Shown: piece after piece, positions 13,743 to 14,991 of the stretch
Position numbering within the stretch: position 1 is the first letter of the stretch
How the letters are laid out: every line of letters begins with the position of its first letter
NCBI GenBank assembly: GCA_017528315.1
Contig: JAFXOW010000036.1
Coordinates: 1-64,000, forward strand
Direction of reading: 5' to 3'
Source: Bacilli bacterium
GTDB lineage: Bacteria; Bacillota_I; Bacilli_A; RF39; UBA660
DNA length: 64,000 nt
Made by a program: the position numbers and the translations under genes
Notes under the pieces: model-generated
Databases searched by the model: none
What the model saw: the letters and a program-made list of their open reading frames with translations, nothing else
What the model was told of the DNA's origin: nothing

Positions 13743-13760
13743 AAAAGTTTCAAAAAGATG

Positions 13761-13789
13761 TTGACATCTGTCGAATAGTATGATAAATT
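13761..13789 (+). promoter_or_regulatory. Promoter of the structured RNA
   Basis: A perfect TTGACA (13761-13766), 17-bp spacer, then TAAATT (13784-13789) preceded by TGA, an extended -10 form. Start expected near 13796. Confidence 0.65.
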
Positions 13790-13795
13790 ATAGTT

Positions 13796-14272
13796 ACTTA
13801 GTATAGATAGCATCAAGTGGATTTAATTGTTCTATTTTATATAATATCTATCCTTATGAATAATATTATATTTATGGACTCTAATATTTATTCTTTTGAA
13901 TATTTATTATTTGAGTATTGAGTTATTTATTTAACTCTTATGCAACTTTTAGTTGCTTTGGACAATTGAGTTTGTCCTATGTTTATTACCTTTCGGTATT
14001 TTAGTATTATTTATTTAATACTTTTATGAACGATTAAAAACATGTATGATGTTTAATGGTATGAAAAGTTATATTTCTTAATATAATCCTTATCGCCGCT
14101 AAGTAAAGCAATTGTTTTGAGAGGAGAAAACTCAAGGATAAGTAGTTGTGGTAAATACTGATAATATTTATTATAAATATTTATATTATCGTGTTTTATC
14201 GATAATATAAATTGTTAACAACTTTTTCCAAACTCGAAATAGATGATTTTATCAGAATCATTTATTTTTTTT
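13796..14272 (+). ncRNA. Candidate large structured RNA of about 475 nt upstream of a sigK-like gene
   Basis: No open frame of note on either strand, but stems follow one another: ATAGATA/TATCTAT (13803-13809, 13845-13851); GAGTT/AACTC (13920-13937); GCAACT/AGTTGC (13942-13956); GGACAA/TTGTCC (13960-13977); TACC/GGTA (13987-13998); AGTATT/AATACT (14003-14022); AAACAT/ATGTTT (14038-14054); CTTATC/GATAAG (14089-14142); AGTTGT/ACAACT (14144-14223) around GATAATAT/ATATTATC. A promoter precedes it and a hairpin-T8 terminator ends it. It has no RNase P, tmRNA or SRP marks. It may be a standalone RNA of the large ornate kind (ROOL, GOLLD and OLE are known examples) or a leader acting on the sigma gene. 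Confidence 0.6.
14241..14272 (+). terminator. Intrinsic terminator of the structured RNA
   Basis: AGATGATT (14241-14248), loop TTATCAG, AATCATTT (about 14256-14263), then A and eight T. It ends 27 bp before the sigma-factor ATG, so either the RNA is separate or read-through controls the sigma gene. Confidence 0.7.
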
Positions 14273-14298
14273 AAACTCATATATTTTATTGGTGGTAT

Positions 14299-14991
14299 AT
14301 GTTTTTAAGTATTATAGAGTTTATTAAACAATTATTTTTCTTTACCGGAAGTTATTCTAATAATTTATTTTTAGAACCTTTAACCAAAGAAGAAGAAGAA
14401 AAATATTTAGAATTATTAAAAAATGGCAATGAAGATGCTAGAAATAAACTTATTGAACATAATTTACGATTAGTTGCTCACATTGTAAAAAAATTTAATG
14501 ATGATTCTCATCAGCAAGATGATTTAATTAGTATAGGAACCATTGGACTTATTAAAGGGATAGATACTTATAAAGAAGGTAAAAATGTTCGTTTGACAAC
14601 TTATTGTGCTCGTTGTATTCAAAATGAGATATTAATGTATTATCGAAGTAATAATAAATATAGTAAAAATATTTCTATAAATGAAGGAATTGGTTTTGAT
14701 AAAGATGGTAATGAAATAACTATTCTTGATATTTTAAAATCTGATAAACCAGATTTTGCTCTTGAATTATATGAAAAAGAAAATATAAAACTTTTGAGTA
14801 AATATTTTCATGTTTTAAATAGTAGGGAAAAAGAAATATTAACTTATAGATATGGTTTAGGTGAAACAGATGAGTTAACTCAAAAAGAAATTGCTAAGAA
14901 GTTACATATATCAAGAAGTTATGTATCTCGTATTGAAAAAAGAGCTTTAACAAAATTATTAAAAGAATTCATTGTTAATAAAAAGAATTAA
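14299..14991 (+). CDS. sigK: SigK-like RNA polymerase sigma factor
   Basis: 230 aa sigma-70 family protein without region 1.1. Region 2 reads ARNKLIEHNLRLVAHIVKKF and DDLISIGTIGLIKGIDTYK; region 4 reads LNSREKEILTYRYGL and TQKEIAKKLHISRSYVSRIEKRAL. These match sporulation sigma-K closely, including KDGNEITILDIL between regions 2 and 4. The N-terminus keeps a hydrophobic stretch (residues 1-19) like the pro-sequence of pro-SigK. GGTGG stands before the ATG. No promoter lies between the upstream RNA terminator and this gene. Whether the organism sporulates is not shown. Confidence 0.82.
   Translation: MFLSIIEFIKQLFFFTGSYSNNLFLEPLTKEEEEKYLELLKNGNEDARNKLIEHNLRLVAHIVKKFNDDSHQQDDLISIGTIGLIKGIDTYKEGKNVRLTTYCARCIQNEILMYYRSNNKYSKNISINEGIGFDKDGNEITILDILKSDKPDFALELYEKENIKLLSKYFHVLNSREKEILTYRYGLGETDELTQKEIAKKLHISRSYVSRIEKRALTKLLKEFIVNKKN

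Follow-up and report, generated by a model that had tools for sequence, protein, structure and literature searches.

Multimers are uncommon among natural RNAs, and for most of them relevance in cells has yet to be demonstrated (PMC7357161, PMC12286853). The ornate ROOL and GOLLD RNAs self-associate through kissing loops into 8-mers and 14-mers; OLE is a bacterial noncoding RNA homodimer whose palindrome has switched from one sequence to another, and this palindrome-switch argument has been made for both OLE and GOLLD; and the raiA motif RNA is a monomer by cryo-EM (PMC12286853). Closest in sequence to the RNA described here is Rfam family RF03040 (PGK RNA), a 92-nt model of type 'Cis-reg' named after PGK genes. 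The PGK motif reportedly stems from a 2017 paper; our literature search found no paper naming RF03040. In alignments from more than 20 genera of gut Bacilli, mostly from metagenome-assembled genomes, RF03040 covers only the central part of a predicted promoter-to-terminator RNA of ~200–550 nt. Our main reading, to which we assign a probability of about 0.8, is that this is a stand-alone noncoding RNA gene whose RNA homodimerizes or, after duplication, heterodimerizes.

The window, a 64,000-nt stretch of contig JAFXOW010000036.1 from a Bacilli bacterium (GCA_017528315.1), carries this RNA in a 556-bp gap (13743–14298) between the stop of glyS (glycyl-tRNA synthetase; 13742) and the start of a sigK-like gene (14299), with no open reading frame of at least 50 amino acids. 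A sequence-only reading of the window had described a gene-free stretch of this length with a TTGACA/extended –10 promoter, many stems, and a hairpin-T8 terminator (13796–14272), all of which our analysis confirmed (Table 1). The predicted RNA is ~480 nt long from promoter to terminator. Its folding is strong, with a minimum free energy for 13790–14275 of –115.1 kcal/mol, versus –80.9 ± 5.5 kcal/mol for dinucleotide-shuffled versions (n = 100, none of them as low; z = –6.3). Of the 89 loci compared, nearly all have a comparable promoter directly 5' of the P1 5' strand. The neighboring SigK-like protein, encoded in a ~1.4 Mb genome, scores 286.6 bits against TIGR02846, under the cutoff of 298.65.

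A cmscan against Rfam, the check suggested by the sequence-only reading, gave a significant match to RF03040 inside the RNA, the sole one in the genome; no second Rfam family attained its gathering score within the region. The earlier description of a large, structured RNA that has a promoter and a terminator of its own stands, while 'unassigned' gives way to RF03040 at 74.6 bits. That this is not RNase P, tmRNA, SRP, or 6S RNA agrees with the lack of any such Rfam match in the region. The ROOL, GOLLD, and OLE models gave no match there, at the gathering threshold or with E-values as high as 10. Weak matches to JA04, STnc240, and a snoRNA fell below threshold and were rejected.

Table 1. Features of the predicted RNA and its surroundings (window coordinates).
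Feature	Position	Strand	Details and basis
Sigma-A-type promoter	13761–13789	+	TTGACA 13761–13766, 17 nt, TG-A-TAAATT 13784–13789, extended TG; from sequence
P1 5' strand, 5' end of RNA	13794–13802	+	UUACUUAGU; pairs with 14098–14106; RNAalifold; 100% paired in genus alignment
5' domain hairpin a	13842–13868	+	RNAalifold, genus alignment
5' domain hairpin b	13876–13917	+	Two stacked helices; RNAalifold, genus alignment
5' domain hairpin c	13920–13940	+	GAGUUA...UAACUC; alignment helix 5, covaries in genus; coordinates placed by eye, alignment shifted in window's own row
5' domain hairpin d	13942–13957	+	GCAAC/GUUGC; covarying, genus alignment
5' domain hairpin e	13959–13978	+	GGACAA/UUGUCC; covarying, genus alignment
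5' domain hairpin f	14003–14022	+	Genus alignment
Hairpin directly 5' of PGK core	14068–14087	+	Covarying, genus alignment
Rfam RF03040, PGK RNA	14082–14171	+	cmscan 74.6 bits, gathering score 50.8, full-length model 1–92
P2	14089–14142	+	CUUAUC 14089–14094 with GAUAAG 14137–14142; pseudoknotted with P1 (3' strand 14098–14106)
Candidate dimer interface, self-complementary	14107–14116	+	AGCAAUUGUU, with a G-U; perfect palindrome CAAUUG 14109–14114
P3 hairpin	14117–14135	+	UUGAG(AGGAGAAAA)CUCAA, conserved purine loop; Rfam model match, alignments
P4a closing helix	14144–14223	+	AGUUGUG 14144–14150 with UAACAACU 14216–14223; genus alignment
P4 hairpin	14151–14171	+	Loop CUGAUAA 14158–14164; Rfam model match, genus alignment
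P4b hairpin	14179–14212	+	Genus alignment
Conserved AAACUCG 5' of terminator hairpin	14230–14236	+	Alignments
Terminator	14236–14272	+	Hairpin 14236–14268, loop UUAUCAG 14249–14255, U tract (T8) 14265–14272
SigK-like sporulation sigma factor gene, outside RNA	14299–14991	+	NF004471 297 bits, cutoff 252

Within the window's genus, ~460–480 nt can be aligned from promoter to terminator. The 16 congeneric sequences support 16 helices, with 97.4% of cells paired. The sequence-only reading had also proposed alignment and covariation as a check, and covariation is evident: among 117 pairs, including the pseudoknot, 24 have double changes versus 9.6 in shuffles (0/500), and shifting the partners abolishes the signal. 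A second genus (19 sequences, ~290–340 nt) has 19 pairs with double changes versus 8.1 in shuffles (0/500). The variable part of the RNA is its 5' domain, which is long in the window's genus, shorter elsewhere, and nearly missing in locus L020 and in L027, a second copy.

The Rfam structure does not include three features, each with compensatory changes: P1, a kissing contact between the loops of P4 and the terminator, and a self-complementary segment. Nearly all of the 89 loci have a short strand just 3' of the promoter that can pair with part of the PGK core, in forms that include CUUAGU/ACUAAG, CUUGGU/ACCAAG, GUCUAG/CUAGAC, CCUAGAG/CUCUAGG, and GUUUAGAG/CUCUAAAC. The P1 helix score is 17.8 for own strands and 11.9 ± 0.69 for permuted genera (22 genera). 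By this prediction, P1 and P2 form a pseudoknot, and P1 shows where the RNA begins. RNAalifold gave an alternative to P2, which we rejected because the program does not handle the P1–P2 pseudoknot. Two elements, the purine loop of P3 and an AAACUNG before the terminator, are nearly fixed while the helices vary, which favors a trans-acting structural or protein-binding role, although we hold this role only tentatively.

The loop of P4 is complementary to that of the terminator hairpin. The two change together to CUGACA/UGUCAG (CUGACAA/UUGUCAG) in L024, L072, L082, and L084–L086, and the pair is CUAGUAA/UUACUAG in L025. Second RNAs of duplicated pairs have AAUGAAA/UUUCAUU, AAUGACA/UGUCAUU, UCAAUGA/UCAUUGA, or a 10-nt form. 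Over 14 sequence variants, loop complementarity averages 7.1 nt for own loops and 4.3 nt across variants, and 0/10000 permutations reach the own value. Since the kissing pair and the palindrome are invariant within the window's genus, their support comes from other genera. The unit 2 RNAs of L222–L225 have a conserved terminator loop, UUUUCAUUR, complementary to their own P4-like loop AAUGAAA. L025 is a diverged copy among phage-like repressor and DnaD-like genes, so mobile elements may be another carrier of the RNA.

RF03040 occurs in the window's genome and in all 16 other sampled genomes of its genus. Across the order it is found in 73/385 genomes, all of one family and mostly in single copy, and a sample of the class held none beyond that family. 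The true distribution is likely wider than these counts, and a pattern search turned up copies that the model missed. In named genomes, a pattern scan gave 50 matches followed by CTGAYAA and 30 without it; records of the 50 are titled uncultured Bacilli, Erysipelotrichaceae, Tenericutes, Clostridia, and the like, and many come from rabbit ('Lapin') and rumen ('RUG') sets. Three matches in viral_contigs were judged on inspection to be due to chance.

The sequence-only reading had placed the RNA in front of a sigK-like gene, a position that proves to be a neighborhood of the window's genus and no property of the RNA. A cis-regulatory leader of sigK, an attenuator or riboswitch in which kissing of the P4 and terminator loops switches termination, would accord with the Rfam type, with sigK ~30 nt downstream in most copies in the window's genus, and with a terminator engaged in a conserved interaction. 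However, downstream genes differ between genera: besides sigK they include phosphoglycerate kinase (PF00162, L002), which is downstream only in genus g62, and, by eye, HU, rubrerythrin, MurG, and unknowns. The next gene is convergent in L047, L055, L064, and L070, and the RNA lies between spoIVA and an HU gene in either orientation (L003 versus L047 and L055). The start of sigK is ~400 nt (L016) or ~1200 nt (L012) from the motif, and in duplicated lineages the UUAUCAG hairpin lacks a U tract and is followed by a separate terminator. Across the loci compared, there is no conserved sense-orientation association with one gene or pathway. Because neighbors change between genera and are sometimes convergent, the RNA is probably not a sigK leader, a reading we regard as improbable. 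'Cis-reg' is a functional label rather than a definition by sequence or structure, so membership in RF03040 stands while the label fails; this corrects a database label that would direct readers toward a riboswitch. A link to sporulation was hinted at by the neighbors sigK and spoIVA and by a weak CotD-like match (below the Pfam cutoff). SpoIVA is found in 352/385 genomes of the order, whose small genomes thus mostly keep sporulation genes, but RF03040 is in only 73, and this link was therefore dropped.

The candidate dimer interface is flanked by the 3' strand of P1 and by P3. A perfect palindrome of at least 8 nt occurs here in 79% of loci versus 9% of shuffles, and one of at least 6 nt is kept through sequence change in 80/81 single-type loci, L025 being an exception without a clear palindrome. 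In most loci it is ACAAUUGU, and ten central tetranucleotides occur (AAUU, AUAU, UAUA, GUAC, GAUC, UGCA, CGCG, ACGU, AGCU, and GCGC). A stand-alone monomeric RNA, with the palindrome serving as a small hairpin or as a DNA- or protein-binding site, is quite unlikely: some palindromes are long enough for a short hairpin with a 4-nt loop, but those four central bases, the would-be loop, are palindromic in all ten forms, something that a hairpin or a fixed protein site would not need, and duplicated genes swap palindromicity for mutual complementarity. A loopless perfect palindrome cannot fully pair with itself within one molecule. Palindrome covariation predicts homo-oligomer formation. Two genomes each hold two RNAs with differing palindromes, CAAUUG and UGAUCA (L059/L087, G178) or CAAUUG and GCGCGC (L047/L068, G238), a difference that would stop the two homodimers from mixing.

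With the exception of L025, every locus that departs from the palindrome comes from a genome holding two of these RNAs. Genera g14 and g18 have them as two adjacent units whose segments are not palindromic yet are complementary to each other: UUGUAAUUUCA/UGAAAUUACAA in L077, AAUUGUAAUUUUU/AAAAAUUACAAUU in L078, AAUGUAAUUUU/AAAAUUACAUU in L083, and AACUGUAACU/AGUUGCAGUU in L081, with four more complementary sets in L222–L225. In genus g35, the complementary genes are on separate contigs (L004/L026 and L041/L061). This makes ten duplicated sets that are complementary rather than self-complementary, two of them on separate contigs. Mean duplex energies are –11.0 kcal/mol for partners, –4.2 for self, and –3.4 for shuffled segments, the segments having been delimited by eye and some pairs using G-U. 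The second unit has its own promoter in most adjacent sets (L078, L081, L083, L224, and L225). In the g14/g18 pairs, unit 1 combines the CUGAUAA loop with a plain terminator, and the UUAUCAG hairpin is in unit 2; the predicted contact would therefore be between molecules, unless the units are cotranscribed, as is possible in L077. An antisense-type regulator paired with its target is the least probable account, as the 10–13 nt of complementarity between paired RNAs would suit it but the PGK fold and the conserved elements are common to both partners, and most genomes have one RNA, complementary only to itself. In g14 and g18, the RNA pair of L078, L081, L222, L223, and L225 lies directly 3' of a gene that, by eye, ends like rplL (ribosomal protein L7/L12). 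Tandem copies a few hundred bases apart are seen in three genomes (L063 and L067, two copies each, and L005/L027), the second copy having a much shorter 5' domain.

In the dimeric RNA that we favor, the housekeeping polymerase would transcribe the gene from its own promoter to its own terminator. The 5' end would fold back into the PGK core, threading P1 through P2, and the loop of the last hairpin (P4) would kiss the terminator loop, within one molecule or between the two of a homodimer. The exposed palindrome (CAAUUG here) would pair with its counterpart in a second copy, making the dimer the working form; in two lineages, the gene would have been duplicated and the two RNAs would have become partners with complementary interfaces. 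Comparison among loci bears out an independent, highly conserved RNA with the predicted promoter, terminator, P1, kissing, and complementarity between molecules at the interface, and we infer that dimers form in cells. Evolution seems to test dimerization, as the interface changes yet stays self-complementary or, after duplication, partner-complementary. We judge it likely that dimeric RNAs of this kind make up a new class of bacterial noncoding RNA, one whose homodimers have given way at least twice to heterodimers of separately transcribed paralogous RNAs with complementary interfaces. If true, this would be the RNA counterpart of a route common among proteins. Dimerization is directly testable with small RNAs.

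The window RNA shares with RF03040 its sequence and the P2, P3, and P4 helices, but nothing in the model corresponds to P1, the 5' domain, the terminator hairpin with its kissing loop, or the pairing of the palindrome, and the model is labeled cis-regulatory, whereas the window RNA runs from promoter to terminator among variable neighbors. Like the raiA motif RNA, it is a large structured bacterial RNA, but it has no raiA match in Rfam. With OLE it would share homodimerization through a palindrome that switches between sequences. OLE differs from it in fold and hosts, and to our knowledge no protein is associated with the window RNA, unlike OLE. The likeness to ROOL, GOLLD, and OLE drawn by the sequence-only reading was apt in that self-association is predicted, although the RNA is none of these by Rfam match. 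ROOL is linked to phages or prophages, whereas the window RNA is mostly chromosomal and single-copy; and in place of the 8-mers and 14-mers of ROOL and GOLLD, the window RNA is predicted to form a dimer.
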